In this document: piece after piece, positions 31,173 through 60,920 of the stretch
Layout: the number at the start of each line of letters is the position of its first letter
How positions within the stretch are numbered: the first letter of the stretch is position 1
NCBI RefSeq assembly: GCF_003966565.1
Contig: NZ_AP018719.1
Span: forward strand, 62,001-126,000
Direction: 5' to 3'
DNA: 64,000 nt
From: Sulfuricystis multivorans
GTDB lineage: Bacteria; Pseudomonadota; Gammaproteobacteria; Burkholderiales; Rhodocyclaceae
Notes under the pieces: generated by a model
What the model saw: the letters and a program-made list of their open reading frames with translations, nothing else
Databases searched by the model: none
Told to the model about the DNA's origin: nothing
Translations under genes and position numbers: made by a program

Positions 31173-31181
31173 TACTGTTCC

Positions 31182-32645: not shown

Positions 32646-32648
32646 TTC

Positions 32649-34662: not shown

Positions 34663-34695
34663 GCCCTGAGGATAGTCCTCGCACTCAAGTTACGG

Positions 34696-34744
34696 CAATG
34701 CAGAAATGCAGCCGAAAAAGTGGAGTTAGGTGCAGTTTTGGATT
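34696..34744 (-). promoter_or_regulatory. Activator box 1, in front of the lipoprotein-traF-traH-traG operon
   Basis: Read on the minus strand the 49-bp box carries AATCCAAAACTGCACCTAAC, then TCCACTTTTTCGGCTGCATT and TCTGCATTG. It is the most divergent of four copies but keeps the CACCTAA, TTTTTCGGC and CATTTCTGCATTG blocks. It lies 33 bp upstream of the start codon. Confidence 0.75.
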
Positions 34745-34837
34745 CCCGCCCTTAGGGAAACACTGAAAAAGTCGTCGTATCCAGCCGGAGAGCAAGACGC
34801 TCAGAGCGCAGGATGCGAGACAATTCGGTTGCACCGG

Positions 34838-38613: not shown

Positions 38614-39785
38614 CAGTACGTCCTACTGTTTAGCGTTGCGCACTGGTCGTTCCAGACATCGGTGTATGTAACCTGAGTGGGGAGGGAGAAGTTCGCTGAC
38701 CCGTAATACGAAAAGCCCAGGCACGGGTTGTAGAACCAGGAGCCCATAGTGCAAGTCGTAGCGTTACAGGTTTGGCTGTAGTAGGTTATGAAGCAGTACC
38801 CAGCTCCGGTATTCATATTGGTAATACCCTGGGTTTGCGGGATGTAGGCCCCAGGCGTTCCGGGAATGTTTGCCCAACCTAAGTCTACGTAGAATTGGTT
38901 GGTTCCGTGCACCTGCGTGTAGAAGTGCTGCTGGTAGTACCCGTTCTGGCAGTAGTAGTCGTATACCAGGTAATCGATGCAGTAAGGGCAGGGGTCGGCG
39001 ATTACTCTGACGATAAAGGCGCCCGGCGTACATCCTGGGATCGTGTTGATCTGGATGTTCAGCGTCTTATGGCAGGTGTGGGTATTGGTTTGATATTCGA
39101 TTTTCGTGCACTGGTAGTTGTAATCTACATCAACCACAACCACATCGCCGTAGGTACAGGTTCCGTGGTTGATGGTGGAGATGGTTTCCTTACAACTGTA
39201 GAGGTAGTCAGGATCGACGACGACGTTCTGACCTATTGTGCATGAGGCGGCCCCGTTTTCCGACCAGTCATCACATGTTTGCATGACAAAGTCTGGCGTT
39301 GAGGCTTGCTGTGTGGTAGTACAGTTCGAGTAATTTCCGTTAATCGCCCCAGCAATGGCTTCTGGATTAGCTGCGATCGCCTTACCCTGCAGCATGAGCG
39401 GGTCGCTGCGGGTAATTTGACTGTTCGCATTGAAAGACTGTGCATTAACTAATGAATTGACTGCCTCACAATGTTCCTTGTCTGCCGGATTCGTCGATGA
39501 CGTGCCTGCGCCGCATTCAGAAATCTTGGCTTGGCCTCCAAAATACAGTGAGTTCAATACTGTGTTTTGCCCTCCATAATAGGCAGATTGCGGCGGCGGT
39601 ATTTGGGAGTAGCCGCTGACCACGTTACCCGCTTGGGAATGACCAATGTTGTTGAAGATGTCTTGTGTGTGAGTGTTATCTCCAGCCGCTTTACCGTCCG
39701 CAAAAGCGGCCATCTGCTCTGGCGTTTGTGCGTAGGCAATTCCAAAAGATATTGCCAATGCCACGATTAGGGAACGGATGATCAT
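38613..39785 (-). CDS. Second TraN-like, cysteine-rich secreted protein
   Basis: ATG at 39785 overlaps the trbC stop (ATGA); the frame to 39857 is not needed. Signal peptide MIIRSLIVALAISFGIAYAQ. The 390-residue protein has many cysteines with patterns such as YSCKETISTINHGTCTYGDV, YQCTKIEYQTNTHTCHKTLN and a Tyr-rich C-terminus (YYSQTCNATTCTMGSWFYNP). The 'YxC...C...CxKTL' rhythm recalls the N-terminal region of larger TraN proteins from R391-type elements. It may be a split TraN half or a second adhesin. It heads a TraN-like/partner pair that is repeated downstream. Confidence 0.65.
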   Translation of the reverse strand: MIIRSLIVALAISFGIAYAQTPEQMAAFADGKAAGDNTHTQDIFNNIGHSQAGNVVSGYSQIPPPQSAYYGGQNTVLNSLYFGGQAKISECGAGTSSTNPADKEHCEAVNSLVNAQSFNANSQITRSDPLMLQGKAIAANPEAIAGAINGNYSNCTTTQQASTPDFVMQTCDDWSENGAASCTIGQNVVVDPDYLYSCKETISTINHGTCTYGDVVVVDVDYNYQCTKIEYQTNTHTCHKTLNIQINTIPGCTPGAFIVRVIADPCPYCIDYLVYDYYCQNGYYQQHFYTQVHGTNQFYVDLGWANIPGTPGAYIPQTQGITNMNTGAGYCFITYYSQTCNATTCTMGSWFYNPCLGFSYYGSANFSLPTQVTYTDVWNDQCATLNSRTY

Positions 39786-40474
39786 TGCCGAGTCCTTTCC
39801 AGACGCTGAAGGTAAATGTCGGCTTTCTCTCCGATCGGACCGCCTCGGCTCGACCACTGCTCCAAGGCGTACTCCAACGTGACATCGCCTGTGAGTGCGT
39901 ATGATTGGCTGTCACAGGTGTCTGAGGAACAGCCCTCTTCCTTGCTCGCAATTACAAACGTCGGAACGGCTTTGACGTTGTAGCGGGTGAAGGCCTCCGG
40001 GTCGATTTGAATTTGGGCACCCGTAGTGCCAACCGGCTGAAGGGCCTCCATCGTCTTCTGGATGGCCCCCCTGGTTCCCAGAGGTGCAACCAGACCGCGC
40101 ATGACCAGAACCGCACCAGTTGCCTTAGCCTGTTCCCCAAGCATGACCAGTGCTTTGGTAGGCATCGATGTCGAGATAAAGATCATCAGCTCCTGCTTTG
40201 CCGGCCCCTGTCCAACTCCAGATGCCTCGTACTTATTGGCGAGCGTCAACGGATCGACCCCTTTCATCTTTCGGACTTCCTCTACGCTCAGTCCTTGCTT
40301 ATGCCCTGTTTGCTTGTCGTTCTGCCGCATGGATTGAGCTTGGGCCATTGCGCGCTCGATAGCCTGCTGGGTGCGGAGGTAAGGATCTTGTTCCTGTGCC
40401 GAGGGGTTAATCTGTGCCAATGCAATTGCAGGGGGTATGGATAGCAGGGCAAGAGCTATTTGACGTTTCGTCAT
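39782..40474 (-). CDS. trbC: TrbC, F-type pilus assembly protein
   Basis: ATG at 40474 (MTKRQIALALLSIPPAIALA) starts a signal peptide; the longer frame to 40552 overlaps traU. The 230-residue protein has the TrbC_Ftype core: KQELMIFISTSMPTKALVML, VLVMRGLVAPLGTRGAIQKT, IQIDPEAFTRYNVKAVPTFV. The fold is thioredoxin-like without a CxxC. In F it works with TraW in the periplasm for pilus assembly and in some systems the two are fused. Gap to traU is 38 bases. Confidence 0.9.
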   Translation of the reverse strand: MTKRQIALALLSIPPAIALAQINPSAQEQDPYLRTQQAIERAMAQAQSMRQNDKQTGHKQGLSVEEVRKMKGVDPLTLANKYEASGVGQGPAKQELMIFISTSMPTKALVMLGEQAKATGAVLVMRGLVAPLGTRGAIQKTMEALQPVGTTGAQIQIDPEAFTRYNVKAVPTFVIASKEEGCSSDTCDSQSYALTGDVTLEYALEQWSSRGGPIGEKADIYLQRLERTRQ

Positions 40475-40512
40475 AGGTGTATATCGCAATATCAGGTGAC
40501 GGTTTAGGATGC

Positions 40513-41565
40513 TTACGGGGCCATGTAATTCAGCAAGTTTCCGGCGCAGCAATCCCTTTTCCGGAAGATTTGGTAGACGAAATCCTCGCCCTTAACCGGA
40601 AACTCTCTGCCTGACCCCCAGAGGGCGGTTGAACGCCCGAACGGCTGACAGCATTTCCCGGCGATTTTCTTGGTTTGAGGTATCGGGTAGAGCATCGTGT
40701 ATTTGTAGTCGGTTTTCTTCATTACTGGCTCAGGGTAATAGCCACACAAGCCGTCATCACCGGATGCTGCCCACATTAGAAGTTCTCGATGCAGTTTTGT
40801 GGCCATCCGCGCTGCGATGAGTGAAGAGGCCTGAACACCACCTACTTTCGAACCGACCCATCCGTCCAAAGGAAACATTGAGCCCTGGCAGCCATCACAC
40901 CAGAACAATTCATCACGCCCGAATCCGAATGCCGTGGCAGATACGCAGTCGAGCGCGCAGGCTGCTTGGGCTATAGGATTTCCCCACAACACAACGTCCG
41001 GATTGATGATGAAGGTCGATACGCTGTCAGACCACAACGGATCAATTTCAGTCAGGTATACGAGGTCAAATACACCTCTTTCAAGGCATTTGTCGTCCAG
41101 CAGCACCTCAAGCCAGAACATCAAGGGGTTGGTATACCAATGAGCGTGGTAAAACGCACTAGGGGAACGCGCTTCGCTCTTTCCTGTTTGTGCGTGTTTG
41201 GCTGTCTCAATACCAAAGTCCATACTGACGCCACCCATCCCGACGAAGCAGTAAGGTGTGCGTGTCACATCGACCATGCGTACTGGTTCCCAGAATCCCA
41301 TCTTCATGCCGATCTGCGGGGGGTCTGTGCAGGCACAAAACGGGTTGCTTGATGAGGCAAGACTAGACGTGTTTTCGTCTTGACCCATCGTGACTGCATT
41401 TGATCCGGCCAGCTTGATCGGAAAGGAGCAGGACCAACAGTAATCCGTGATCGGGTTGGCGAACGCGCCATGACAGTTCGGGTCAGCCATCACATGCAAG
41501 GAGAACGCCCCAGCCAGCAAAGCAGCGGTAGCAGCAATCATTCGTCGGTAGAACAAGAACATCAA
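40513..41565 (-). CDS. traU: TraU, F-type mating protein
   Basis: The 350-residue protein has a signal peptide (ATAALLAGAFSLHVMA) and the family hallmarks: DYCWSCSFPIKLAG, FCACTDPPQIGMKMGFWEPV, WYTNPLMFWLEVLLDDKCLE and SDSVSTFIINPDVVLWGNPI, then FWCDGCQGSMFPLDGWVG and CCQPFGRSTALWGSGREFPV. Cysteines are abundant, in line with dependence on DsbC. TraU is needed for DNA transfer more than for pilus extension. Starts 4 bases inside traW. Confidence 0.93.
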   Translation of the reverse strand: MMFLFYRRMIAATAALLAGAFSLHVMADPNCHGAFANPITDYCWSCSFPIKLAGSNAVTMGQDENTSSLASSSNPFCACTDPPQIGMKMGFWEPVRMVDVTRTPYCFVGMGGVSMDFGIETAKHAQTGKSEARSPSAFYHAHWYTNPLMFWLEVLLDDKCLERGVFDLVYLTEIDPLWSDSVSTFIINPDVVLWGNPIAQAACALDCVSATAFGFGRDELFWCDGCQGSMFPLDGWVGSKVGGVQASSLIAARMATKLHRELLMWAASGDDGLCGYYPEPVMKKTDYKYTMLYPIPQTKKIAGKCCQPFGRSTALWGSGREFPVKGEDFVYQIFRKRDCCAGNLLNYMAP

Positions 41566-42203
41566 TTCATCTCCAGCTCGTCAATTCGCAACCGTTTCCC
41601 TTCCTGGCTCACCAGTGAAGGAACGCGGATAATGCCCAGTTTGCGCACCAGCATTCCGCCTTGGTCGAAATAAACCTGAGTCTTCCATTGACGAGACATT
41701 TCTAGGGGCTGCCCATTGACCAAGACGGCCTTCATCTGGCCGTTGTATTGCTGCATCAAGGCCTCTGCTTTCTTCACTTGGGCAGGGTCGGTACCGTCGA
41801 AGAACAGCAAATTCTTCGGCAAGGTCACGTAGTCGAGTGGGTTGATAGTTTTTCCTGCTTCAGCGATCACGTTTCCGTTTGGATCCGTGATCGTTTTGGG
41901 GACCCGCACCGTTGGGTCCCAATAGAACACCCGCGCTTTTTCGACACGGGAGAGACCCTTAACGGGCTTAGGGTTCTCGATAGAGCGCTTCGCGCGGTCG
42001 ACAGCTTCCTTCTGCAACCGAGCTAACTCTCCGGACCTCTGCTTTTCTTTCAGGACCCGATAGATCTCTTGGAGCATGTCTGGTTCAACGATCGGATGTA
42101 CCGGGCCAATCTGCTCTGCGGCTTTACTTGGTATCACAACACCACAGGCGATAATCAGTGGAGTGAGTCGACGCAGCATGGAAGATATAAGGGGGATTTG
42201 CAT
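41562..42203 (-). CDS. traW: TraW, F-type pilus assembly protein
   Basis: The start is set at ATG 42203, preceded by GTG at 42206; ATG 42203 gives the same distance (32 bp) to the upstream activator box as the other tra operons. A signal peptide precedes a core with ARVFYWDPTVRVPKTITDPN, VIAEAGKTINPLDYVTLPKN and LLFFDGTDPAQVKKAEALM, typical TraW. The C-terminus has MSRQWKTQVYFDQGGMLVRK and IRVPSLVSQEGKRLRIDELE. It opens the traW-traU-trbC-TraN operon of eight genes. Periplasmic. Confidence 0.92.
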   Translation of the reverse strand: MQIPLISSMLRRLTPLIIACGVVIPSKAAEQIGPVHPIVEPDMLQEIYRVLKEKQRSGELARLQKEAVDRAKRSIENPKPVKGLSRVEKARVFYWDPTVRVPKTITDPNGNVIAEAGKTINPLDYVTLPKNLLFFDGTDPAQVKKAEALMQQYNGQMKAVLVNGQPLEMSRQWKTQVYFDQGGMLVRKLGIIRVPSLVSQEGKRLRIDELEMN

Positions 42204-42235
42204 CACGTTAAGATAACGAGCCCCCTTTGCTATGC

Positions 42236-42284
42236 CAATGGAGAAATGCCGCCGAAAATGTGGGACTAGGCGTAGAAATGGACT
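42236..42284 (-). promoter_or_regulatory. Activator box 2, in front of the traW operon
   Basis: Minus strand, in pieces: AGTCCATTTCTACGCCTAGT, CCCACATTTTCGGCGGCATT, TCTCCATTG. Three CATTT repeats start at offsets 5, 25 and 37 of the box (CATTTCTAC, CATTTTCGG, CATTTCTCC). It lies 32 bp from the traW ATG at 42203. Confidence 0.85.
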
Positions 42285-42332
42285 GGCAAAAAATACAGCT
42301 GGAGCTGCGGTTGGAGCCTGATAAGGGCCGAG

Positions 42333-42926
42333 TCAGAACAACGAAAAGGTCCGGCCGATGATTTCTTTCTCAGTAATCCATCCAACCATCGCGTAGCGTG
42401 AATCCAGACTGTCGGGGTGCGGAGCGTAAACGTAATATGAGCCCTGCGGGATCACCCCAACCGGCCCCGCCTCGAGCGGCTTGCCACTCATCGAGAAAGT
42501 CTTCGCTACCCCGATCGTGCCATTGCTACCAGGAATCATCGTTGCCATATTGCGTTCTCCAGGTGACATGACAGAGAACCCCCTGGCAGGCGTCATGCTC
42601 ACTATGTCACCACCAACACCGCCAATGATTTTGACCATATGAGCACCCTTACGAAATGGGGAAACCGGGTTTTCGGTCGGGAATTCGAAAGCCACATAGT
42701 CGCCTCGTTTGAGGCCCGTCTTCCATCCCTTCACGGTGATGAACACGTGATCCGGTAAAGAGTCCGTGTAGTTAACGTCGATACGAATCACGAGTTGAAG
42801 CAAGAACACCACAACCAATGGGATGGTGTAGTGCTTCCAATACCGCAGAAAGTGGGACTTACAGAGGTTCAGGTATTCCGGCAAGGAAAGGCGGCGAGCA
42901 CCGTTGGCTGGCGCAAGCAGGCTCAT
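42333..42926 (-). CDS. S26-type conjugative signal peptidase (TraF/TrhF-like)
   Basis: The 197-residue protein has one N-terminal membrane helix (YTIPLVVVFLLQLVIRIDV), then the S26 catalytic blocks: Ser in SLPDHVFITVKGWKTGLKRG and Lys in MVKIIGGVGGDIVSM, with PQGSYYVYAPHPDSLDSRYA as the third block. Such peptidases process pilins or other exported proteins in IncP, IncH and SXT-like systems. It is the last gene of the traA-to-traC operon, with its start overlapping trbI by 4 bases; it likely matures the TraA pilin. Confidence 0.87.
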   Translation of the reverse strand: MSLLAPANGARRLSLPEYLNLCKSHFLRYWKHYTIPLVVVFLLQLVIRIDVNYTDSLPDHVFITVKGWKTGLKRGDYVAFEFPTENPVSPFRKGAHMVKIIGGVGGDIVSMTPARGFSVMSPGERNMATMIPGSNGTIGVAKTFSMSGKPLEAGPVGVIPQGSYYVYAPHPDSLDSRYAMVGWITEKEIIGRTFSLF

Positions 42927-43465
42927 TTCTTGTCTCCTTCAATGATCGGGGTACGGCTACCGCCGCCCAGCGAACGCAATTGCTTGACGAGCTCATCCTG
43001 ATTGACGTTTTCCATTCCCAAGCGACGTTTGAGTTCCGGGGTTAGGTCCTCAGCGCCTGCCGGCTTAACTACGGCCGCTTTGACGAAGATGCTGCAGCCA
43101 CACTCCTGTTGGAGTTCGTTGAGGGCGACTCCCACATCCTTGCCAAATTTCGCCACGTCGTCGTAAGCCTTTAATTTTGCTTCCTCGGAGGCGTCCGGAC
43201 GCATCGCCGCAATGGTGACTTGGAGTTCCTTGATGTTCAGGACTTCTGAGAGATCAACGACAGCGTATCTCTGTTTATTCGGCAACACATAGAAGTAGTG
43301 GTAGGCAATCAGCACAATGACCACAATGAGAACGGTAGTAACGAGGCTGATCAACCTCCCCAACCAGACGCTCTCGCCCTTCTCAACATCGTCGGATGTA
43401 ACTTCTGCTTCTGAGATTCCCGGATCGACCTCGGCCAGGACCTCAGTGTTTTGGTTTTGGTTCAT
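42923..43465 (-). CDS. trbI: TrbI, F-type inner-membrane protein
   Basis: The 180-residue protein has an acidic cytoplasmic N-terminus, one membrane helix (LISLVTTVLIVVIVLIAYHY) and a periplasmic domain with VVDLSEVLNIKELQVTIAAM and KDVGVALNELQQECGCSIFV. This layout matches F TrbI, thought to influence pilus retraction. The ATG shares one base with the traC stop. Confidence 0.85.
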   Translation of the reverse strand: MNQNQNTEVLAEVDPGISEAEVTSDDVEKGESVWLGRLISLVTTVLIVVIVLIAYHYFYVLPNKQRYAVVDLSEVLNIKELQVTIAAMRPDASEEAKLKAYDDVAKFGKDVGVALNELQQECGCSIFVKAAVVKPAGAEDLTPELKRRLGMENVNQDELVKQLRSLGGGSRTPIIEGDKK

Positions 43466-46134
43466 TAAGCAGCTTTCCTTTGCAGCTTGTGGGTGTAGCC
43501 CGGCATGCCACGATCGGCCAGAACGGATTCCAGCGCCTCGACAATCGTGTAGCCTTGCTGGCGGTATGCTTTGACAGCCTCAAAGTCCTCGGCTTTGGAG
43601 GAAACCAGGAGCAGAGAGAACGGGTCAAATAAAACACGGCCGATGCCGTGCCCCATCTGACCTCCGTGTACGAAAACCTCGGAATAGACGCCCTGTACTG
43701 TCTTCACCGACATCAGCATGTCTCTCATGCCCTCGTCGATGACCAGCTTGTCTGATTTCTCTAGGGCGAGGATCGATTCGGGCTTTTGGCGCAATAGGAA
43801 CAGCCAATCAGCGTTGTTGAAGGCAGCCTCGGCGGCGCGGGACATGCTGAAGTCCCCTATCCCCTGTGTCGCAGCGCAAAAGCTTCCGTGATATTTCCGA
43901 GCGCGGCGATACCCTGTTTCGATGAAATCACCGCTGTTTCCGCTACCCAAGAGGGACCAGGCCTCGTCCAGGATGCATATTTTGGGACGATTCCGCGTCA
44001 AGTACATGTTCTGGGTGATGCGGTACATCAGCAAGAACATAATGACAGCCTGAAGGTCTTTCTTGGCAGCAAGTTCTTCCAATTCAAGGACAATCAGATC
44101 GCTTTCAAAATTGACGTTGGTTTCTCCATGAAAGTATCGTCCGTACGGACCATCGCTTGTGTAGGGGAACAACTGGATCCCAATGTCCCGGATCCGTGGA
44201 TCGCATAAATTCTGGCGCTCCTCATGCGGCAGTGCGCGAACCTTGGCGATCCACTCTGGATCGGCCCATTTGGAATTCGGACCACCTTTCTCGCAGTTGT
44301 TGATTAGCGAGTACGCGAGGTCGTCGACCGTTGCTTCGCGGCCCTTTTCGTACCACACGGACAGAATGTGCAGTCCAAGTTGCCGGCGACGATAGTCGTC
44401 CAATGGTTCGCTTGGCGAAACCATCTGTTCGAACAGGGGGACCAGCATTTCAAGGTCATCCTCGATGTCTTCAACCATCGTGAATGGATTCAGCCGAATA
44501 TCCGATTCCGGGGTGAATTCCAGATACTGGCCGCCAACCGTATGACACAGCTTTTCGAACGACCTACCAATATCGACGATCCATACGCGGCCGCCAATCC
44601 CCAGATATGACAGTGCGATCGAGTTCAGGAGGACGGATTTGCCTGAGCCACTGGTCCCTGCAATTACGGCGTTGAAGTTACCTGTCATGTTTGCAAACAG
44701 ATCGATGGACATCGCCTGGCCACGACGGCCCCACATCGGCACAATCGGACGGCCAACCCCGTGCCACTCCGCAAGCAGGGGTGCCATGTTTACTGCATTG
44801 GGGATCGTCTTGGTCGTCATGCGCTGAGCGGTACGGATATCCTTGGTCAGCGTTGGCGTCAGGGACATCGGCAAAGAACCGAGCAGGCCTTGGATCTGGA
44901 TGAAGGTGTCTTCGACGATCTCGAACTGACGTGACCGCCATACCGCCTGGGCAGATTGCTCTGCCCGGGCCATGTCTTCTGGGGCAGCCCACAGGATGAG
45001 TTGGTGGTACATGTGAACCGTGCCCTTGCCCTCGTCGAAGCTACGCTGGGCAATGTCCCAATCGTACTTGATGTCCTGCAGTTCAGGCAGGAATCTCGCC
45101 ATCGGGCTCTCCGCCTTTTGGGTGGCTCGGGCTGCTTTCATCTGAGTAGTTGCCCGAGATTCTTCAAAATCAAGAGTAGAAATGCCGATGGTGATCATGA
45201 ATGGCGAGGTGTAGCCGATCGCCGGCTGCATGTAGTCGCCAATCAACGAGCCCATGGCATTCAGCGTGCAGGCCTTCGGATAGCTCCGAACCGACATGCA
45301 CTTTGCAATGCACTCATTCTTTCTCTGTGGTAGGCCGTAAATCAACCCGTCCTCGGTGACGCGCATCACGGTGTTCGGGGCGATGATCTGCTCTTTGATG
45401 GGCCGGCCTTCATCGTAATTGATGTGGGGAGCGTTGCGCTTGAGAATGGCTTCCTGGGGATTCAAGACCACTGCACACCAATTGATGAGGTCTTCAGGAT
45501 CCCAGTCCCGCTCGTATTGGTAGTATGTTTTCAGGGTCGTTGCGCACGTTTCACGAATTGTTTCAATCTCATGTAGAAGATCTTCGTCCTCGTAGGAGGT
45601 AGCCGGAATGACGACGCTCATTACAATTCGGAAATCGCGCAGTAGGTATGGCTGGTTCGGCACCAGAGGATCTGTCGCACCCTTGCGAAAGTGCTCCGCT
45701 TGGCGTTGGGCCAGTGCGCGGAACAATTCGCGGCGTTCCCGCTCCTCTTTCGTGGGTGCTGTTGCCGGATCCAATCGAACGCCAACATATGCATCCAAAA
45801 AACGGTCAATGAGAGGCGTGGCAATCAGACTCCACTGGACACCGGAACCCTTGGGTAAATAGGTAAAGATCGTGGTGAGAAGATCCGCCATGTCTGGGGT
45901 TGCCCCGGTCTGCGGTGTCATCTCCAGGCAGAAGCCAATCGCGTCAACCTTTTGCGGAACGTCGCCTTCAAGAACGAAAAGGCGGCGCTCTGGTATCCAG
46001 GCGAGATATGGCAGCAAGTCCGAGAAGCGGTCATAGTTCACTTCTCGGGACGGATTGGCGATCGGAGACGGGGTGTAATGCTCTACCCCCCCTTCCTTAA
46101 AGATAGTTTTGAAGAAATTCTTAATGGTGCCCAT
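43465..46134 (-). CDS. traC: TraC, VirB4-family pilus assembly ATPase
   Basis: The 889-residue protein begins with the TraC N-terminal region (SDLLPYLAWIPERRLFVLEG) and has Walker A AGTSGSGKSVLLNSIALSYL near residue 490 and Walker B KICILDEAWSLLGSG near residue 723, followed by YRRARKYHGSFCAATQGIGD. It is the cytoplasmic ATPase that powers pilus polymerisation at the inner membrane. A ribosome-binding site, GGGGAG, lies upstream of the ATG at 46134... the neighbouring gene traV ends 18 bases before. Confidence 0.95.
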   Translation of the reverse strand: MGTIKNFFKTIFKEGGVEHYTPSPIANPSREVNYDRFSDLLPYLAWIPERRLFVLEGDVPQKVDAIGFCLEMTPQTGATPDMADLLTTIFTYLPKGSGVQWSLIATPLIDRFLDAYVGVRLDPATAPTKEERERRELFRALAQRQAEHFRKGATDPLVPNQPYLLRDFRIVMSVVIPATSYEDEDLLHEIETIRETCATTLKTYYQYERDWDPEDLINWCAVVLNPQEAILKRNAPHINYDEGRPIKEQIIAPNTVMRVTEDGLIYGLPQRKNECIAKCMSVRSYPKACTLNAMGSLIGDYMQPAIGYTSPFMITIGISTLDFEESRATTQMKAARATQKAESPMARFLPELQDIKYDWDIAQRSFDEGKGTVHMYHQLILWAAPEDMARAEQSAQAVWRSRQFEIVEDTFIQIQGLLGSLPMSLTPTLTKDIRTAQRMTTKTIPNAVNMAPLLAEWHGVGRPIVPMWGRRGQAMSIDLFANMTGNFNAVIAGTSGSGKSVLLNSIALSYLGIGGRVWIVDIGRSFEKLCHTVGGQYLEFTPESDIRLNPFTMVEDIEDDLEMLVPLFEQMVSPSEPLDDYRRRQLGLHILSVWYEKGREATVDDLAYSLINNCEKGGPNSKWADPEWIAKVRALPHEERQNLCDPRIRDIGIQLFPYTSDGPYGRYFHGETNVNFESDLIVLELEELAAKKDLQAVIMFLLMYRITQNMYLTRNRPKICILDEAWSLLGSGNSGDFIETGYRRARKYHGSFCAATQGIGDFSMSRAAEAAFNNADWLFLLRQKPESILALEKSDKLVIDEGMRDMLMSVKTVQGVYSEVFVHGGQMGHGIGRVLFDPFSLLLVSSKAEDFEAVKAYRQQGYTIVEALESVLADRGMPGYTHKLQRKAA

Positions 46135-52607: not shown

Positions 52608-53243
52608 TTACGCAGAATGTTGAATGTTCGAGATAACTAAGCGCACGAAAACGCCCATAAGCGTAATCACGACAGGGTAGAAAAAGACCGACAAAGGGGT
52701 CACTACAGCGAAGGCAACCATCGATGAAGCCGCCAAGGCGATAATCAGGTGCCATGAGACATTGTAGACTGTGGGAGATGTGTATTTGAATGAGGCCAGC
52801 TTTGCCTTTCTCGTCATCACTCCATCGAAAATAATGGCAGCTAAGAACGGTGTCAGATAAATCACCCAAGACCAGGAATGGGCAATCCTGAAAAAAAACA
52901 TCCAGATGTTGTAGAGAAAGTTCCCCCAGTATTCCATCAGGTGCTCAGCGTAAGGTGTCATCGCATTCGGTAGCATGACGCCTGGTGCCACTTCCTTACT
53001 CGGCATGGGCTTGACGAAATGCTTGCGAATGAGCGGATCAATTCCAGTACTGACCATCGCAACATCATAGAGCCGGTTCGTCCGATTAAGGATCGTCTGC
53101 ACTTCCTGGCCGTCATACCACTCCTCCGCGGTGGCCAGCTCCTTTTCTACGCACGACACATAGTCGGCTTGGTTAATCAGCAGTGGAGCGAATAGAAAGA
53201 TAACGATGATTGCGAACAGCCAAAGTAATCCGTGTCGGGTCAT
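52608..53243 (-). CDS. DUF4400 membrane protein
   Basis: The 211-residue protein has four membrane helices (LLWLFAIIVIFLFAPLLI, WSWVIYLTPFLAAIIFDG, WHLIIALAASSMVAFAVV and FFYPVVITLMGVFVRLVI). The pattern, with a polar periplasmic loop between helices 1 and 2 and RKAKLASFKYTSPTVYNVSW, matches the DUF4400 family that follows traD in SXT/R391, IncA/C and related elements. Role unknown. It is the last gene of the traI-traD operon. Confidence 0.8.
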   Translation of the reverse strand: MTRHGLLWLFAIIVIFLFAPLLINQADYVSCVEKELATAEEWYDGQEVQTILNRTNRLYDVAMVSTGIDPLIRKHFVKPMPSKEVAPGVMLPNAMTPYAEHLMEYWGNFLYNIWMFFFRIAHSWSWVIYLTPFLAAIIFDGVMTRKAKLASFKYTSPTVYNVSWHLIIALAASSMVAFAVVTPLSVFFYPVVITLMGVFVRLVISNIQHSA

Positions 53244-53253
53244 TATGGCTTTC

Positions 53254-53778
53254 CTACTGTGAGGGGCTCATGTGAAGCAAGCTCAGGTAATCAAGTCCAG
53301 CTACCTCGAGATCCTTTGTAGGACTGATAGCTGCCAGAAGCTTGATCATCACTGTGCTGGAAGCGACTGGAGTATCACGCTCTCGGATTTGTATCGCGTA
53401 GCGCTTATGGTTGGCAAGGTATCGCATCAAGGGCTCATCGTAGGTCCAGACTGACCAAAGTCCATCCTTGCCCTCAACAGACACGCGAATAGACGAAAGT
53501 GCCTTAGCACTTGCGGCGATTCGCTCGATGAACTTCCTGTGGCTTACTTCATAGCCTAAGAGCAATGTTTCGTCATAGGAAGCAATCGCATCCCGCAGCG
53601 TCTGTTCCGCAAGGTTCTCGCCATTCACGACCAGCCATGGTGACACGAAATAGATGAACTGGAACGCCACATGCTCCAGGGTAGGCCAATCAGTGAACGC
53701 CTTCACCGGGCCGGATGAGAATCCGGCGCTACTTAGAATTCTGTTGAGGCTTAATCTCACGAGGGTGTTAGCGTTCAT
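53254..53778 (-). CDS. Hypothetical protein of the traI-traD operon, 174 residues
   Basis: It overlaps traD by 4 bases and precedes the DUF4400 gene by 10. The sequence has LNRILSSAGFSSGPVKAFTD, FIYFVSPWLVVNGENLAEQT and LKLLAAISPTKDL-like IKLLAAISPTKDLEVAGLDY; it is soluble with no signal peptide. No family recognised, though its position is the one usually taken by a small unnamed gene in SXT-type traID operons. Confidence 0.6.
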   Translation of the reverse strand: MNANTLVRLSLNRILSSAGFSSGPVKAFTDWPTLEHVAFQFIYFVSPWLVVNGENLAEQTLRDAIASYDETLLLGYEVSHRKFIERIAASAKALSSIRVSVEGKDGLWSVWTYDEPLMRYLANHKRYAIQIRERDTPVASSTVMIKLLAAISPTKDLEVAGLDYLSLLHMSPSQ

Positions 53779-55700
53779 GCTTCTTCATGTGAAATGATTG
53801 GCAGACGGCCCTTGATAAGTCTGCCGCCTGAAACCATTGCGATGTATTGCCAGTTTGGCAGTTGCCCAAGTACGTCCGGCGGCAGAACATCTTCCAGAGC
53901 TTCAGTTACTCTCTCCTGTACAGAGCCGGTGAAATGTGTGATCGTCTTTTCTGTCGAAGAAGACGTCGCATGGATCTTCTGTTGCGTATAGACGTAGGTC
54001 TGACCAAAGGTTTCCGTAACGAAATCTTGAGTAACCCTGTCCTTGATTCGCATGGAAACGAGATTATTGAAGTTCCCGAGCATCTGTCTAGCCTTGTCCA
54101 TCGACTCGAACCGCGCAGCCAGGTCAGGAATCGTTTGGATGGCTGCCAGATTGATGAAGCCGGCACCGGCAGACTTGTTCAGCATTTGGATGTACGGATC
54201 GTTGACCACCTCTGCAGCCTCATCGACGATGAGGAATACCTTGTGGTTTCCGCCGTAGTTGTAAAAAGCTGCAGCAACCGAAGTTAGGTCCGATAGCAAC
54301 ATCGAGCCGACCGCAGAGCTGATTGTCTTATTTGCCAACGAATCCAGGCCAATGCTCACTACGCTGTTGGCGCGAATCAGCGAAGCTAGGTCTGTCATCG
54401 GCCGAGTATCTGCAACATCTCGCGGGTCAGGAGAAAGTAGATCTCCGAGCTCTCCGGTAGTGAGCATCCCCAGAATCGGCACAAGGTTTGCAATCATCTT
54501 GGTGTAGTGAGCGCTGTCATGCTTGTAGATGGTTGCCAAGGCCTCAATAGCTTCGTCTCGTATGCCACGCGGAACGATCATGTCCAGATAAAATTCCAGG
54601 AGAAGATTGAGAGACTGACGCACAAGGATCTCGCCATCTTCTTGCCCCTTCTTCCCCTTCACTTGCTTGAGCGTTCGCGCATACGCCGCCACTTCGGTTT
54701 CCCAATTCGGCTGTAGCTCCTCGTCGAAGAACTGAAGAATGACACGCATCAAGAGATCGGCAATCCCGTTGTCCACGTAGGAGCGAATGCGCACAAGTGA
54801 CGGCTTTTCGCCCGTTGCTAGCATGCCCATCACGATGGCGTTCAGCACCCCCCACGCAAAGTCTCGGAAGGAAGAAGACTTGTCCCCACCAGGCATCAGC
54901 GCGGCGATTCGCGATGCCAAGTCGCTTGGATTCGTATAGTTTTTCAATGGATCAATACGGGCGCTCTGCCCAGGGAATGCAAGATGGAATCTGACATAAT
55001 CATGTTCCCGGCCCGCCTGTTTGCACGCCGCACGCAGGGAGGCATCAAAGGGCTGGTCTCCCTTTGGATCAATGCAGATGACGGTGTAGCCAAGTTCGAT
55101 CGCCATTTCAGCAATGAGCTCTAAGAAGCGAGTCTTTCCGCACCGGGTTGTCCCGACCAGGAGGGTGTTACCTATTAAGTTCTGAATTGGCACATACAGA
55201 TCGTCCTCAGATCCATTCAGGCCGTGTATCCACGGGGCGCCAATATATTCAGTAGTATTTGCGCCCACCTGCTCACCGCTCCATTGTTCGATCATCCACA
55301 TGATCATCTTCGGTGGATAGAACTGTTCCGGGTCGGCCCGCTTGATTTCGTACACCCGCTGGGTATGAACCGGGGTCCAGTCGAAGCCCTTCCCAAACCA
55401 AAGCGCCCGCGAGTTTTCCTGCCCTTCTACGCTGGTGACTTTGGTTTTCAGTTCCTCGTCAGTGATGAAGCTGATGCCCTTACCACCCAGACTCCATTTG
55501 AGTCGCCAAATCTCCCATGCCCGAAGTAGGTTGAAGATCATGAAAACAAGAGCAGTCGCCCCAAGGTAGTAGAAGGGAAGGTCAGGGAAAGATGTGGTGT
55601 ACCATGCGTATGTCAGTCCTATCACGCAAAGGAACCACACGGCTGCAGAATAAGCCTCGTAGGCCTTCCGCCACGGCATTTCGAATTGGCGAAGAAGCAT
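53775..55700 (-). CDS. traD: TraD coupling protein (SXT-type VirD4)
   Basis: The 641-residue protein has two N-terminal membrane helices (AVWFLCVIGLTYAWYTTSFP and FYYLGATALVFMIFNLLRAW), a QFYPPKMIMWMIEQWSGEQV region, Walker A LLVGTTRCGKTRFLELIAEM near residue 183 and Walker B KVFLIVDEAAEVVNDPYIQM near residue 493. This is the SXT/R391 TraD subfamily of type IV coupling ATPases. It brings the relaxosome to the channel. Lies 5 bases after traI. Confidence 0.95.
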   Translation of the reverse strand: MLLRQFEMPWRKAYEAYSAAVWFLCVIGLTYAWYTTSFPDLPFYYLGATALVFMIFNLLRAWEIWRLKWSLGGKGISFITDEELKTKVTSVEGQENSRALWFGKGFDWTPVHTQRVYEIKRADPEQFYPPKMIMWMIEQWSGEQVGANTTEYIGAPWIHGLNGSEDDLYVPIQNLIGNTLLVGTTRCGKTRFLELIAEMAIELGYTVICIDPKGDQPFDASLRAACKQAGREHDYVRFHLAFPGQSARIDPLKNYTNPSDLASRIAALMPGGDKSSSFRDFAWGVLNAIVMGMLATGEKPSLVRIRSYVDNGIADLLMRVILQFFDEELQPNWETEVAAYARTLKQVKGKKGQEDGEILVRQSLNLLLEFYLDMIVPRGIRDEAIEALATIYKHDSAHYTKMIANLVPILGMLTTGELGDLLSPDPRDVADTRPMTDLASLIRANSVVSIGLDSLANKTISSAVGSMLLSDLTSVAAAFYNYGGNHKVFLIVDEAAEVVNDPYIQMLNKSAGAGFINLAAIQTIPDLAARFESMDKARQMLGNFNNLVSMRIKDRVTQDFVTETFGQTYVYTQQKIHATSSSTEKTITHFTGSVQERVTEALEDVLPPDVLGQLPNWQYIAMVSGGRLIKGRLPIISHEEA

Positions 55701-55705: not shown

Positions 55706-57703
55706 TTATTCCTTGGGGGGGGTCATATCGAAGCCGAGGCTAGAAGCGATCTCTGGCTTCAGAATAATCATTCTGTGCGTCTTCCCATTGATCTCGACTG
55801 GATGAATTCGGCGACTTGCTCTGGTCTTGTCTTGCCAAAGCCACGCCTTCAGGCCAAGCTCTTCGAGAAGTTCCATCACAGGAATTCCGTGCCGGTTTAG
55901 TTCTTCGTGGCTAATTCCAAAGCCGTAAGGCAAAGCTGCAGTCACGCCGCTCATAGTTCCATTGCGATAGGCCTGCATAACCTCATTCAGCAGCCACGCA
56001 TTCGTGCGCTTTAGAGACCCGAGTAGCTTTGCAGCTGTTGGGCTCACGTCAGCTCCAAGCGAGGCGCCGCTGTCGCTTTCCTGATCTGGGTATCGTTGAC
56101 TCTTTGCTTGAACATCTTTCCCGGTGCCGCCATCCTTCTCTTCTTCTGCACTGATCCTGGGTTTCTTACGATTCGAGCTTTTAGGGGTTGCTGTCGCCGG
56201 CAGTTCCTTGTTTCCTTCAGGAAGAGGCTCGTTGCTTTGCACGCGGGACAGAATCTCTGCGGGCGGTGGCGCATTCAGTTCCTGCTTCGGCGCAGTCCAC
56301 AGCTTTTCATTTGCTGTACCGGCCGGAACATCCATTCCTGAAGGAGTATTCAGCGCAGAGGCATGAGCTATCGAAGCCTGCGTTGTACCGTTTGCCGCTG
56401 GAGCTGCTTGCTGATTCGCCTGAACCGTCGAAGTTGGCGAGAGTGCAAGTTGGATGTTCTTGTAAGGTTCGAAGTCGAAGCCCCGGGGGAAGATCACCTC
56501 TCCCTCTCGCAGCTTTACCATGCCCTCCTTCGCCTCGAATGTTCCCGGCAAAGCGATCGTCCAGTACCGAGAGCCGCTTTCGTTCAGCTGAAGAAGATTT
56601 GCGGATACCAGAAGGTCTGCCAAGGTATCCGGGTCTTTCGGGATGCCAGCAAACGAATCTCGAGCCAACAGGTTCGCTATGTCAGACGCTGCGACTGACC
56701 AGTCGATGTAAACGCCTTCCTTCCCCACCCAAAGACGACCACCTGATGCGACGTTGTTTGCGATCCACTTACCTCCTCGGACAAGGCGCCGCATTGCATC
56801 GACCAGGTGCATTTCAAGGTGGGTTCCGATTACCAAGTGCCCATAGTTCGTGGCGGACCGCTTCAAATCGTCCTCGATCACCCGGGTGATCACTGGAGCA
56901 ACCAGTCGACCGATCGGGTTCTCGGATGTATTGGTTTCGACACCAGCGATCGTTGCGGTCATTGCCGGTACTATTTGATTATTGTCGCTGGCGAGATACT
57001 CTAGAACGTCATGGGGGACTACTTGAGAAATTGAATACGCAGATGATGCTTGGGCACCGTGAACGTGCGTATCTTCCATCCAGCGGACAAAATAGACGTC
57101 TGCTTTCGTATTCGTGCACCATTGGAAAAGGGAGTGCAGGAGCGGAGACCACTGTTGGTTGTCCCTCGTCATAACCGCCATCGAATTGACTGTGCGGTAG
57201 TTCTGGCTGCATAGACCTGCTAGGAAGGTGGCCAACGTCCACTTTGGTTGCATGAAAAATCTGCGCTCAACCCCTCCTCCGGTGGGAAAGACTGCTGCAT
57301 TGGCTGATTGCAGCGAATTCAGTGCGATTTCGAGACTCATGCGGAAAAGCCCACCAGTTCCGCGGAAATAGGTAGTGCTCGTTGCCGGTAGTAAATGCAC
57401 GTGCTCCGCCATATTTCGTACGGCCGGCATGTAGAGGCGGTTGAAGTCGGCACGCGAGACGCCGGCGGTGCGGAAGATGCGGTCCAGCAACTCTTGTTGC
57501 GATTGCAGGATTTTCTCTACGGGGATGACAGGTATGCCTTTGTCGAATGGAGGATAGCGTGTTATCGCATAGTCGCCTGGATCCTCTTCGCCCGGATAGA
57601 CGTCCAAGCCGATCCCACGGGACTGGAGTTTCTGCGGGATCAACAATGGAGCAGATTGTTGCGTTGGAGTACGAGTCAGCAGACGGCGGATAAACTTGAG
57701 CAT
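55706..57703 (-). CDS. traI: TraI, MobH-family relaxase-like protein lacking canonical HD residues
   Basis: The 665-residue protein matches the TraI_2/TraI_2_C (MobH) family: YPGEEDPGDYAITRYPPFDK-type opening, MAEHVHLLPATSTT, GGLFRMSLEIALNSLQSANA, QWSPLLHSLFQWCTNTKADV and YFVRWMEDTHVHG, plus a C-terminal domain (LLNEVMQAYRNGTMSGVTAA, MELLEELGLKAWLWQD). In relatives the first blocks read roughly 'HHH...GGLLRHxLEVA' and 'LLHDxGK'. Here TYF (111-113), M122 and LCSQNYR (164-170) stand at those places, so the metal-binding histidines and the HD pair look lost. It either does not nick DNA itself or uses other residues. The start, 33 bp from box 4, has no good ribosome-binding site. Confidence 0.85.
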   Translation of the reverse strand: MLKFIRRLLTRTPTQQSAPLLIPQKLQSRGIGLDVYPGEEDPGDYAITRYPPFDKGIPVIPVEKILQSQQELLDRIFRTAGVSRADFNRLYMPAVRNMAEHVHLLPATSTTYFRGTGGLFRMSLEIALNSLQSANAAVFPTGGGVERRFFMQPKWTLATFLAGLCSQNYRTVNSMAVMTRDNQQWSPLLHSLFQWCTNTKADVYFVRWMEDTHVHGAQASSAYSISQVVPHDVLEYLASDNNQIVPAMTATIAGVETNTSENPIGRLVAPVITRVIEDDLKRSATNYGHLVIGTHLEMHLVDAMRRLVRGGKWIANNVASGGRLWVGKEGVYIDWSVAASDIANLLARDSFAGIPKDPDTLADLLVSANLLQLNESGSRYWTIALPGTFEAKEGMVKLREGEVIFPRGFDFEPYKNIQLALSPTSTVQANQQAAPAANGTTQASIAHASALNTPSGMDVPAGTANEKLWTAPKQELNAPPPAEILSRVQSNEPLPEGNKELPATATPKSSNRKKPRISAEEEKDGGTGKDVQAKSQRYPDQESDSGASLGADVSPTAAKLLGSLKRTNAWLLNEVMQAYRNGTMSGVTAALPYGFGISHEELNRHGIPVMELLEELGLKAWLWQDKTRASRRIHPVEINGKTHRMIILKPEIASSLGFDMTPPKE

Positions 57704-57736
57704 GTCCGGAATTATCCGGAGCGGCTCAGAAAGACG

Positions 57737-57785
57737 CAGCAGAGAAATGCCGCCGAAAATGCGGGACTAGGCGTAGGAATGGGCG
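57737..57785 (-). promoter_or_regulatory. Activator box 4, in front of the traI-traD operon
   Basis: Minus strand, in pieces: CGCCCATTCCTACGCCTAGT, CCCGCATTTTCGGCGGCATT, TCTCTGCTG. It agrees with box 2 over most of its length and lies 33 bp from the traI ATG at 57703, right after the FlhC-like gene. Confidence 0.85.
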
Positions 57786-57796
57786 AAGATGAGATA

Positions 57797-58441
57797 TCAA
57801 CCTTCGCAGGCGTGGCGAGATGCCGCAATACGCTCGGAGTTCTCAACCAATCTCTCGTAACGCTTCTGTATTGCGCACATTGGGCACGACTGGTTGTCCA
57901 GCTCCGCTTCGGTGATCACGAGGTAGCTAGCTCCACAATCTGGGCAGTCCTTTAATGTCAGTGACGCATACTTACGCCCATACCCATAGCCAAGGTGAGT
58001 CATCAGATCATAGGCGTTATTCAGTGTGATCCTGGACAATCTGGGAAGAGCTTGCTGGATGGGGTCGGTGAGGCGGTAATACGCCTGGAAGGCCGTGGTA
58101 AGCAACCAACCGCGGTTTGCAGGCTCATCTAAAGCAGCTTCGATCTTGAGGTAGATACTGGCAAATGCAGCAGCTTGTAGATTCCAGTCGAGTCCCCCGC
58201 GATTATGGGGTATCGCATAATGTTTCGGCTGGGCCTGCTGGAGCCTTCCGGCTGGCGCTTCTTGGCCCGTGAGGCGCTTATACCGCTCGGCGATAGCCTT
58301 CGATGATAGGCCAGTGTACCTGGCGATCAGTTTCGGTTTTCCTCCCAACAGGACCATGGTATTCGCAAGGTCCAGGAATCTACTGACCCAGATGGGGTCA
58401 TCGAACTGAGCCGATTCTGGAATGGGGGCGCCTGGATGCAT
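57797..58441 (-). CDS. FlhC-like transcriptional activator subunit (SetC/AcaC-type)
   Basis: The 214-residue protein follows FlhC: a first helical part (SRFLDLANTMVLLGGKPKLI), a HTH-like stretch ARYTGLSSKAIAERYKRLTG with the family's GQEAPAGRL, a helical middle (FQAYYRLTDPIQQ) and a zinc site CPDCG (166-169) with CPMC (186-189). FlhC with FlhD forms the flagellar master activator; SetC/AcaC with SetD/AcaD do the same for conjugation genes in SXT and IncA/C elements. It lies 10 bases after the FlhD-like gene. Confidence 0.9.
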   Translation of the reverse strand: MHPGAPIPESAQFDDPIWVSRFLDLANTMVLLGGKPKLIARYTGLSSKAIAERYKRLTGQEAPAGRLQQAQPKHYAIPHNRGGLDWNLQAAAFASIYLKIEAALDEPANRGWLLTTAFQAYYRLTDPIQQALPRLSRITLNNAYDLMTHLGYGYGRKYASLTLKDCPDCGASYLVITEAELDNQSCPMCAIQKRYERLVENSERIAASRHACEG

Positions 58442-58451: not shown

Positions 58452-58904
58452 TTACGCAGCCGCTGCCAACATGGCGGCGGAATAGTGAGGGATAGCCTTC
58501 TGATGCAACGGCCTAATGCTAAGAGTAGCGGCCCCTGATACGTCGAATATTGTTCCTGGCCAGCGACGTGAGATGTCAGAAATTTGCTGGTTTGTCAGCC
58601 GCGCCAAGACGCGCGCTTGTGCCATGTTGATACTCAGAATGATCAGGCCATCGAAGTATCCGCTCAGGACGTCGCGGGCTGTCTGCCGTGCGAACAGCAG
58701 GTATTCCTTGTTGATAGCGGTGACGTCCGGGGGATTTTGGTGATGCGAATGAGCAACAACGGTAGCAACTGTCGAAAGCTCAGATGCCGATGGTTTTAGT
58801 TTCCCAAGGCAGACGGTGAGGAGATTCAGCGTCGAGTGCAAGTTGACATTCGCAGGCCCCATTTGCATCAGGATACGTTTGTTCAAAGCGCGTAAATCGT
58901 CCAT
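58452..58904 (-). CDS. FlhD-like transcriptional activator subunit (SetD/AcaD-type)
   Basis: ATG at 58904 follows GAAGGGTCGCAA, a good ribosome-binding site. The second half matches FlhD: INKEYLLFARQTARDVLSGY, LIILSINMAQARVLARLTNQ and QISDISRRWPGTIFDVSGAA, corresponding to FlhD's 'YLLLAQRLI...LGI...LAALT...VKLAE...CHFR'. The first 60 residues are an extension relative to E. coli FlhD. It is expected to form a hetero-oligomer with the FlhC-like protein. Promoter with a perfect TTGACA upstream (58989-59018). Confidence 0.85.
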   Translation of the reverse strand: MDDLRALNKRILMQMGPANVNLHSTLNLLTVCLGKLKPSASELSTVATVVAHSHHQNPPDVTAINKEYLLFARQTARDVLSGYFDGLIILSINMAQARVLARLTNQQISDISRRWPGTIFDVSGAATLSIRPLHQKAIPHYSAAMLAAAA

Positions 58905-58978
58905 TTGCGACCCTTCTCTGTGATCTAGGGCCGCAAACTAGGTGGAATCCCGTATTGACAAGCCCTACGTCATGCGAA

Positions 58979-59063
58979 CGTATTGCGGATTATTGTGAGG
59001 TGCGCCATACTTTGTCAAGAGATATTTTCCGTGTAACGGAGTTTTTGTTTCCGTAATGCGGAG
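58979..59063 (-). promoter_or_regulatory. Promoter and operator candidates of the FlhDC-like operon
   Basis: On the minus strand a perfect -35 TTGACA (59013-59018) is 18 bp from AATAAT (58989-58994). Three related palindromes surround it: TCCGTGTAACGGA (59028-59040), TTCCGTAATGCGGA (59049-59062) and, over the -10, the TCCGCAATACG form (58979-58989). Such spacing suggests a repressor or autoregulation. The rest of the 440-base divergent region holds the response regulator promoter and nothing else recognisable. Confidence 0.6.
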
Positions 59064-59282
59064 GTTGTTGCAGCCGTATGCGAGAATTAGGTAAAGATGT
59101 TTTGCTAAGCACAAGACTACTGCGGCTTGTTCTGGCGCTCGAACTTTCCGATCACCTAAATAAAGTTTCTACCTTCGATAGGATCTATGTGGCACAATGA
59201 AAACGCACAATGAGAGATTTCCTGGCCGTGGTCTATGGCAGCACAAGTGCCATTACATTGCCTATCTATAACTAAGGACATA

Positions 59283-59320
59283 TATAATGCGATCCTTTTT
59301 GTCTTGACCAACCGGTCAAG
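59283..59320 (+). promoter_or_regulatory. Response regulator promoter and palindromic operator candidate
   Basis: TATAAT (59283-59288) has only a weak -35 at TTGCCT (59258, 19-bp spacing). Downstream, CTTGACC (59303-59309) and GGTCAAG (59314-59320) form a perfect palindrome with a 4-base centre, inside the expected 5' leader of the gene at 59345. It could be an operator or leader hairpin. Confidence 0.45.
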
Positions 59321-59344
59321 CTCAAGTGCTCAGAGAAAAACATC

Positions 59345-60004
59345 GTGCCGATTCGAGTATTTCTGGCGGATGATCACCGCCTACTGGTGGAGGGTTTCCG
59401 CCATGCCCTCAAGGACTACGACATCGATGTCGTGGAGGTTGCTTACAACCTTGATGGTTTGATTTCCCGTTACCTCGAGGTGAAACCCGATGTACTCGTC
59501 ATTGATGTCCGGTTTGACCGCAAGAGCGCGTCCGAGACTGGGCTAGATGTATGTGAGGAGCTTCTTGCTACGCACCCTGACGCGAAGATCATCGTCTTCT
59601 CTCAGTTCGACGACCAGTACATCATCGAGAAAGCCTATAAGATCGGAGTCCTGTCCTTCGTCCTGAAGGACGAAAGCATCGATGTCCTGAATCAAGCTAT
59701 CCGTACTGTCGCCGAAGGCAATGAGTTCTTTTCACCTAAAGTCGCACAACTACTTGCCCGATCCTCGGTAAAAGACCGGAATCCCACCAAGCTTCTCGAA
59801 GAGAAAGAACTTCGCGCATTCTTGCTGACTGCAGACGGAGCTTCTCTTGCTGACGTCGCCGAAACAATGGATCTGTCAACCAAGACCGTGGGCCATCTGC
59901 TGAAGAGCATCAAGTCCAAACTTGACATTGAGACGCAGGCTGATTTCACCAAGCTCGCGATTAGGTTCGGGCTTACTACGACCGAGTTGAAAACGAAAAA
60001 GTAA
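59345..60004 (+). CDS. NarL/LuxR-family response regulator
   Basis: GTG at 59345 begins MPIRVFLADDHRLLVEGFRH. The receiver domain has acidic residues D9-D10, phosphoacceptor D54 (VLVIDVRFD) and K108 (SFVLKDES). The C-terminal HTH (DGASLADVAETMDLSTKTVG, HLLKSIKSKLDIETQADF) is LuxR-like. No good ribosome-binding site precedes the GTG. It is convergent with, and overlaps by 29 bases, the histidine kinase gene, an unusual arrangement for a partner pair. Likely target genes include neighbours or the transfer activator. Confidence 0.88.
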   Translation: MPIRVFLADDHRLLVEGFRHALKDYDIDVVEVAYNLDGLISRYLEVKPDVLVIDVRFDRKSASETGLDVCEELLATHPDAKIIVFSQFDDQYIIEKAYKIGVLSFVLKDESIDVLNQAIRTVAEGNEFFSPKVAQLLARSSVKDRNPTKLLEEKELRAFLLTADGASLADVAETMDLSTKTVGHLLKSIKSKLDIETQADFTKLAIRFGLTTTELKTKK

Positions 60005-60920
60005 CCCGCGTTCCTGGGTGTTGAGCATTATCGGGGAACGCCGGTTGAATATTGAGATTTCCGCCGATCGCCCGGGCTCGCTCACGCATGTCGATAAGGC
60101 CAATGCCAGCGGGAATCCCTGCAGGCGTTTTGGCTCTTGACTTCAACCCTACCCCATCATCGGTAATCATGACTTCGATGAGGCGCTTCCGTTCATTCAA
60201 CTTCATGGATACAGAGATCTGCTTGGCATTGGAGTGCTTGATGGCATTGTAGATGGATTCACGGATGATTTTGTACGCCGTAATAGCAACTTCTTCATTG
60301 ATCTCCGGCCGTTTTGGTAGGTTGTGTTCCAAAACAATCTCGGGCTTATCGAAGAAATTGGTGTAGTGTGAGATCAAGGACTCAATCGCCACCGTAAAGC
60401 CTATCGAGTCGATCATTTCGATCCGAGCGCTCTTGATGATGTTACGTGTCTGGGAATAGGCATCTGCCAAGAGTTCCTGGATGGACGTAAGAATTTTGCT
60501 AGCTTCCGGATTGTCCTGGACGTAAGGCGCAAGGCGATTCAGTTCGTTTTTACAAAGCACAAGATTGGGATTTACATCGTCATGGAGGCGCCGAGAAATC
60601 ATCCGGCGCTCTTCGTCGATACGGCGATTCAGTTCCGCGAGAACGCGCCTGGTCTCCTCGTGTGAGACGTCGGTCTGGACGTTACTTTGTATATTTTCCA
60701 GGATGGACACATATAGCAGAAAGACTAAGGCCAGCACGGCTGGAAGGCTGGAAATGATATTCGATTTGATTGTGAATGGGAGCAAAACAACTAGGAACGC
60801 GGCCCATGTCCATAGAAAATATTTGGCCGTTAAGTTACCCCTAAATGCAAGGATCAGGTTGACAACGAAAGCCACCAACAGGAAAACGCAGATTGTTAGA
60901 AAGACGAAGCTTTCATCCAT
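59976..60920 (-). CDS. NarX-type sensor histidine kinase (HisKA_3)
   Basis: Three N-terminal hydrophobic segments (FLTICVFLLVAFVVNLIL, WTWAAFLVVLLPFTI and AVLALVFLLYVSIL) lack any sizeable periplasmic domain, so input probably comes from within the membrane or from a partner. The dimerisation helix has DEERRMISRRLHDDVNPNLV with phosphoacceptor H113, then an ATPase with RESIYNAIKHSNAKQIS (N box) and DDGVGL and GIGLIDMRERARAIGG (G boxes). It lies 26 bases after the DUF1805 gene in a three-gene operon and is the obvious partner of the convergent response regulator. Confidence 0.9.
   Translation of the reverse strand: MDESFVFLTICVFLLVAFVVNLILAFRGNLTAKYFLWTWAAFLVVLLPFTIKSNIISSLPAVLALVFLLYVSILENIQSNVQTDVSHEETRRVLAELNRRIDEERRMISRRLHDDVNPNLVLCKNELNRLAPYVQDNPEASKILTSIQELLADAYSQTRNIIKSARIEMIDSIGFTVAIESLISHYTNFFDKPEIVLEHNLPKRPEINEEVAITAYKIIRESIYNAIKHSNAKQISVSMKLNERKRLIEVMITDDGVGLKSRAKTPAGIPAGIGLIDMRERARAIGGNLNIQPAFPDNAQHPGTRVTFSFSTRS

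Follow-up and report, generated by a model that had tools for sequence, protein, structure and literature searches.

RESULTS

The window analyzed here, a stretch of 64,000 nucleotides, is part of contig C2 (149,340 bases) of a 2.81-Mb genome in three contigs and carries a gene for a 665-amino-acid MobH homologue, here referred to as traI* (positions 55706 to 57703; minus strand, as for the genes in this paragraph and all codon positions below). The protein exceeds the cut-offs of both the Pfam TraI_2 profile (PF07514; 225.9 bits against a cut-off of 23.9, 8e-67) and the NCBIfam MobH profile (306.1 bits against a cut-off of 200, 2.6e-91). Directly downstream, on the same strand and after a gap of 5 bases, lies traD (53775 to 55700), whose coupling protein product matches SXT_TraD (NCBIfam, 7.7e-197). 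It is followed by a gene for a 174-amino-acid protein (53254 to 53778), which has no Pfam match and is also present in plasmid pAZI09 of Azospira sp. I09, and by a DUF4400 gene (52608 to 53243; PF14348, 1.1e-18). Upstream of traI* are genes for an FlhC-like regulator (57797 to 58441; NCBIfam FlhC, 1.9e-7, which is below the cut-off) and for a 150-amino-acid protein in the FlhD position (58452 to 58904) that has no Pfam match and is conserved in pAZI09. F-type T4SS genes, including traG, traH, traN, traU, and traC, occupy positions 27840 to 46134.

The sequence-only reading had reported TYF at residues 111 to 113, a methionine at residue 122, and LCSQNYR at residues 164 to 170 in place of the motifs expected of MobH relaxases, and translation and an alignment of TraI* with 75 ORFs bore this out. 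Residues 104 to 128 read LLPATSTTYFRGTGGLFRMSLEIAL, and the intact MobH protein encoded on contig C3 of the same genome has LLPASQSHHHRGAGGLLRHSLEVGL and LCHDAGK at the matching motifs. TYF (codons 111 to 113; 57365 to 57373) replaces the HHH of the metal-binding 3H motif, which is present in 22 of 22 intact sister proteins; in the clade of lost-site relatives described below, H111 is retained in 0, H112 in 4, and H113 in 11 of 41 rows. The methionine (codon 122; 57338 to 57340) takes the place of the first histidine of the HD site, kept by all 22 sisters and by none of the 41 rows, and LCSQNYR (57194 to 57214) takes the place of LCHDxGK, with S166-Q167 (57203 to 57208) standing for an H166 and a D167 that are likewise absent from every lost-clade row. 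The TYF, M122, and S166-Q167 replacements all lie within positions 57190 to 57405, as had been claimed. TraI* also lacks K170, D174, H216, and D272, each of which is invariant in the 22 sisters: codon 216 (57056 to 57058) encodes glycine, with histidine in 0 of 41 lost-clade rows, codon 272 (56888 to 56890) encodes isoleucine, with aspartate in 1 of 41, and position 170 is an arginine in 39 of 41 lost-clade rows versus a lysine in all sisters. A histidine at codon 295 (56819 to 56821) is specific to the lost clade (39/41 rows; proline in 20/22 sisters) and is the sole histidine kept in nearly all rows among the columns conserved in this clade; a search of the lost-clade alignment for shifted ligands revealed no clade-wide His/Asp set. 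Since the loss is common to pAZI09 and 40 more clade relatives, it is not due to chance or to an assembly error. We noticed that RefSeq and the NCBIfam MobH equivalog call lost-site proteins (the window protein and those of loci L033 to L035, L068, and L073) "MobH family relaxase," a name that does not depend on the catalytic residues.

The best plasmid match is the pAZI09 protein, which is 80.8% identical to TraI* and has the same changes. Further lost-site relatives are encoded on complete plasmids of Azonexus, Paraburkholderia (pBN2), Piscinibacter, and Hydrogenophaga, and the lost-site sequences come from Burkholderiales/Rhodocyclales plasmids and genomes. A tree of 101 rows unites the 42 lost-site rows in one group (support, 100/100), next to intact MobH proteins that include the C3 copy, and when the motif columns were removed, 41 lost rows still stood apart from 34 intact rows (98/93). 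One member, L163, is without the motif region and does not enter the residue counts; near-copies (L041/L160 and L045/L073) are present in the tallies. The site loss is a lineage trait and not the property of one odd protein; the sequence-only reading was right about the loss but had missed that a whole lineage shares it. Within the window's own family, a search of 199 genomes listed 88 TraI_2 places, and among the 73 MobH copies read (15 fragments were left out), 13 are lost and 60 intact. A genome scan yielded 30 loci, of which the 29 readable at the motifs are all lost-site, but the single degenerate pattern used contained the lost-clade histidine and biased the scan towards this clade, and its result is therefore not used as a frequency. 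No relative was found when viral contigs were scanned with the TraI* sequence or in a single-protein scan of genome contigs, and the open-licence literature searched describes no MobH clade without the site. As a separate observation, locus L056/L098 (G203:C19) encodes a TraI_2 protein on a long branch whose motifs read PYH and LLSPLP but which retains H122; this is a second, independent partial loss, separate from the main clade, and the clade counts exclude it.

Residues were lost selectively. Among 30 columns that do not vary in the 22 intact sisters, 12 are kept in at most 20% of the 41 lost-clade rows (H111, H112, H122, H166, D167, G169, K170, D174, P187, H216, D272, and S275), 7 fall between 20% and 80% retention, and 11 are kept in at least 80%; these last look structural (P, G, L, A, W, and N316, and also E125). 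The Ka/Ks ratios between the window and pAZI09 are 0.037 for the TraI_2 core, 0.087 for the C-terminal domain, and 0.358 for the linker, compared with 0.029 for traD and 0.037 for the FlhC-like gene. Between these two, the lost-site TraI_2 domain is under strong purifying selection, as is TraD, and the reading frames of traI* are intact over a deep clade. This Ka/Ks pattern is unlike that of a decaying gene.

A fold model of TraI* built from 30 sequences is confident in its core (pLDDT mostly above 85) and shows disorder at about residues 423 to 548; the model starts after Met1, so that its residue n is residue n + 1 of the protein. The TraI_2 core (residues 46 to 404; 56492 to 57568) is predicted to comprise HD-like helical and winged-helix-like domains: residues 66 to 288 of the model align to HD-fold enzymes such as SAMHD1 (Z about 10), and residues 290 to 420 align to 2ipq (DUF1528; Z 10.2). 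The last part of the protein (about residues 548 to 665; 55709 to 56062) is predicted to form a winged-helix domain, a candidate for DNA binding. Modeled alone, the C-terminal 125 residues align to SaPIBov1 Rep (Z 9.9), TcpK (Z 7.3; rmsd 3.0 to 3.2 over 88 to 89 aligned residues), and 2ipq (Z 7.0), with ranks 5 onward at Z 5.2 or less. Foldseek gave no match for this domain at an E value of 0.001 or better; its TcpK match has a probability of 1.00 but an E value of 7.1e-3. The domain is homologous to that of intact MobH proteins (hhalign probability 96.3, E 1.6e-9), and because the intact copies have it too, it was inherited and is not a new gain. The claim that the fold and the C-terminal domain are kept thus agrees with the structure predictions and with the hhalign comparison to intact C termini.

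The gene order FlhC-like gene, traI*, traD, often a small gene, and the DUF4400 gene recurs among the lost-site loci. The T4SS genes that come next are F-type in the window, in pAZI09, and in some other loci (L134 and L141, for example) and VirB-type in Azonexus and pBN2, among others; the pairing of traI* with traD thus persists with both kinds of transport system, as would suit a role at the coupling step. Modules that are nearly identical are found in separate genera (pBN2 and Burkholderia aenigmatica, 94.5% over 15.2 kb; Schlegelella and Piscinibacter, 97.1% over 9.4 kb), which we take to mean that lost-site elements move or moved recently. Several side observations concern the same region. 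Counterparts in the position of the 174-amino-acid gene are present with VirB-type systems and absent from some Sphaerotilaceae loci. In L144, L147, L150, and L156, unrelated cargo genes seemingly lie between the FlhC-like gene and traI*, which would seem to point to an insertion hot spot. An Integrase_1-type tyrosine recombinase (17561 to 18805) and an actin-like protein (20186 to 21289) are encoded in the window and are common to most lost-site plasmids.

The second contig of interest, C3 (102,623 bases), is plasmid-like and encodes the intact MobH of the sister lineage mentioned above (L001; G000:C3:53934-54866), so that two MobH types share one cell. We also noted a 3.3-kb stretch with 91.5% DNA identity between the two contigs of this genome, G000 (C2:44469-47762 and C3:3983-7270), which is likely a common transposable element.

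Other relaxases were sought by profile. On C2 and on three complete plasmids with a lost copy (W02, W03, and W04), there was no match to PF03432, PF08751, or PF03389, and the sole TraI_2 protein was the lost copy; the suggestion of a nickase elsewhere thus found no recognized relaxase in its favor on C2 or on these plasmids. Over a wider set, PF03432 matched 4 of 18 genomes or records (G246, G050, W01, and W05), PF08751 matched only G254 of 13, and PF03389 matched only G516 of 13. In W01 and W05, the relaxase match belongs to a separate ICE-like block that has a TraG and replication/partition genes of its own and, in W05, trb genes as well; we take these blocks to be Tn4371-like. Among 9 searched for PF02486 (Rep_trans), W02 alone had a match, a single one in a block with its own integrase, and the absence of PF01076 matches in 9 carries no evidential weight because the control gave none either. 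Of a further 11 genomes carrying a lost copy, 3 matched PF03432 and none PF08751. In G575 and G412, only lost copies were seen, and the profiles of five other families of relaxases gave no match; the control for one of the five, PF01076, was uninformative. No inverted repeat pair indicative of an oriT was found near traI* in positions 58800 to 59400 or 57650 to 57850. A tyrosine recombinase was also considered as the nickase. Such recombinases are present in 13 of 13 genomes or records searched, and homologues of the best-shared one of C2 also occur on C3 and W07, which carry intact MobH; since recombinases also occur on intact-MobH plasmids, none stands out, and this candidate was not supported. 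Typing by MOB-suite does not track the loss, with intact Comamonas and P. mandelii plasmids also being typed as nonmobilizable.

DISCUSSION

TraI* shares with the MOBH relaxases of SXT/R391, IncC plasmids, and the GGI the TraI_2 domain, the traI-traD linkage, a disordered middle, and a C-terminal globular domain (review PMC12857230) but differs from them in lacking the 3H and HD motifs, H216, and D272. As the catalytic features of MOBH relaxases are absent, with TYF at the 3H motif and M122, S166-Q167, G216, and I272 at the HD site and its companion residues, we file TraI* as a MobH-derived pseudo-relaxase. According to the same review, both the 3H and the HD motifs are needed for cleavage by the GGI TraI, the one MOBH relaxase studied biochemically. 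Because both motifs are required and the site was lost selectively, the lost clade should be unable to use the known chemistry.

On balance, we think that TraI* is a noncatalytic, DNA-binding adaptor to TraD and that nicking is performed by another protein. The two-metal 3H/HD nuclease site would have been dismantled in the clade's ancestor, on the simplest view in a single event, without loss of the fold, of the C-terminal winged-helix domain, or of the partnership with TraD. TraI* would then act as a noncatalytic relaxosome protein that recognizes either the transfer DNA or a nicked complex formed on that DNA, binds via its winged-helix domains, docks to TraD without cutting, and hands the DNA to TraD and the T4SS; oriT would be cut by another protein, supplied by the plasmid itself or by a partner element. 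The best precedent is the IncC TraI, a MOBH protein that raises the transfer of SGI1 by about 3 to 5 logs even though SGI1 uses its own oriT and MpsAB, and the authors of that study suggested that it helps to bring the relaxosome to the T4SS (PMC6414798). An adaptor role is the most likely one for TraI*, probably within a MOBH-like relaxosome. The sequence-only reading had offered a noncatalytic scaffold with the nickase elsewhere; its first half is upheld by the clade-wide site loss, the kept fold, and the strong purifying selection, but its second half is not, as no alternative nickase or oriT was found in the searches made. Also weighing against the adaptor reading are that none of the tyrosine recombinases stands out, that MOB-suite typing does not follow the loss, that the C-terminal winged-helix domain is ancestral, and that the intact MobH on C3, in the window's own cell, could nick in trans.

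It appears unlikely that the old pocket was rebuilt and still cuts DNA, the "other chemistry" that had been put forward. Much of the clade has E167 (34/41), H169 (30/41), R170 (39/41), H174 (21/41), Y287 (36/41), and H295 (39/41), and R170, H295, and Y287 are found in 0 of 22 sisters. However, the window lineage has Q167, Y169, and S174, so that R170, H295, and Y287 are the sole polar replacements with a wide distribution, and no complete ligand set is common to the clade. We give equally little credence to nicking in trans by the intact MobH of a coresident element, here C3, with TraI* as a partner subunit or regulator. Of the 12 genomes of the family that have a lost copy, 6, including that of the window, also hold an intact MobH, as this would require, but 5 (G070, G130, G117, G032, and G197) have the lost copy only and no MOBP or MOBF match (G119, with one fragment left unread, was counted in neither group), and G575 and G412 speak against it as well, within the limits of the PF01076 control. 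If the T4SS had ceased to transport plasmid DNA and had taken on a protein or contact function instead, nicking would have been freed from selection, in line with the lack of a recognized relaxase on C2, W02, W03, and W04 in the families searched; we regard this as improbable in view of the near-identical modules across genera and the selection on the winged-helix domain. Plain decay, with traI* as a pseudogene on its way out, would account for the lost site but is already contradicted by the intact frames, the low core Ka/Ks ratio, and the selectivity of the loss, and is thus highly improbable.

Returning to the adaptor reading, we infer that the lost-site plasmids are competent for transfer and probably start it some other way, and no report of the transfer of one was found in the open-licence literature searched. 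It is conceivable, although we hold this only tentatively, that these plasmids are self-transmissible and begin conjugation without a known relaxase, by means of either a MobH-derived pseudo-relaxase together with an undescribed nickase or a rebuilt active site; if true, this would be a new way to initiate DNA transfer. Two of the closest known systems may be compared with TraI* here. On SGI1, the IncC TraI aids transfer begun by an unrelated nicking system, but unlike TraI* it keeps its site (HHH/HD in the IncC plasmid copy, L070), and the plasmid's own transfer needs it (PMC6414798, PMC9299015). TcpK is noncatalytic and binds the oriT of pCW3 beside the unusual tyrosine-recombinase-like relaxase TcpM (PMC6137059), and its winged-helix fold may resemble the predicted C terminus of TraI*; in contrast to TraI*, it is a separate small protein of a Gram-positive system and has no TraI_2 domain. 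The lost clade would represent either an unfamiliar start of conjugation, used by a large set of environmental plasmids, or a relaxase fold turned into a pure adaptor. In both cases it is a natural experiment that parts two roles of a MOBH protein, cutting and DNA delivery, a question left by the IncC/SGI1 work.

Two further observations may be added. Just upstream of the FlhC-like genes, a response regulator gene (plus strand) and a histidine kinase gene (minus strand) with overlapping ends (59345 to 60920) form a pair that is conserved in pAZI09 and may control transfer. The closest solved structure to the TraI* model is PDB 3kq5, a hypothetical protein of Coxiella burnetii, which aligns to residues 51 to 420 with a Z score of 22.1 over 306 residues and an rmsd of 12.3, so that the domains are shifted relative to each other. 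The sequence match is only 12 to 17 bits, and in this weak alignment, the stretch of 3kq5 likewise seems to have no HHH or HD, perhaps through an independent loss.
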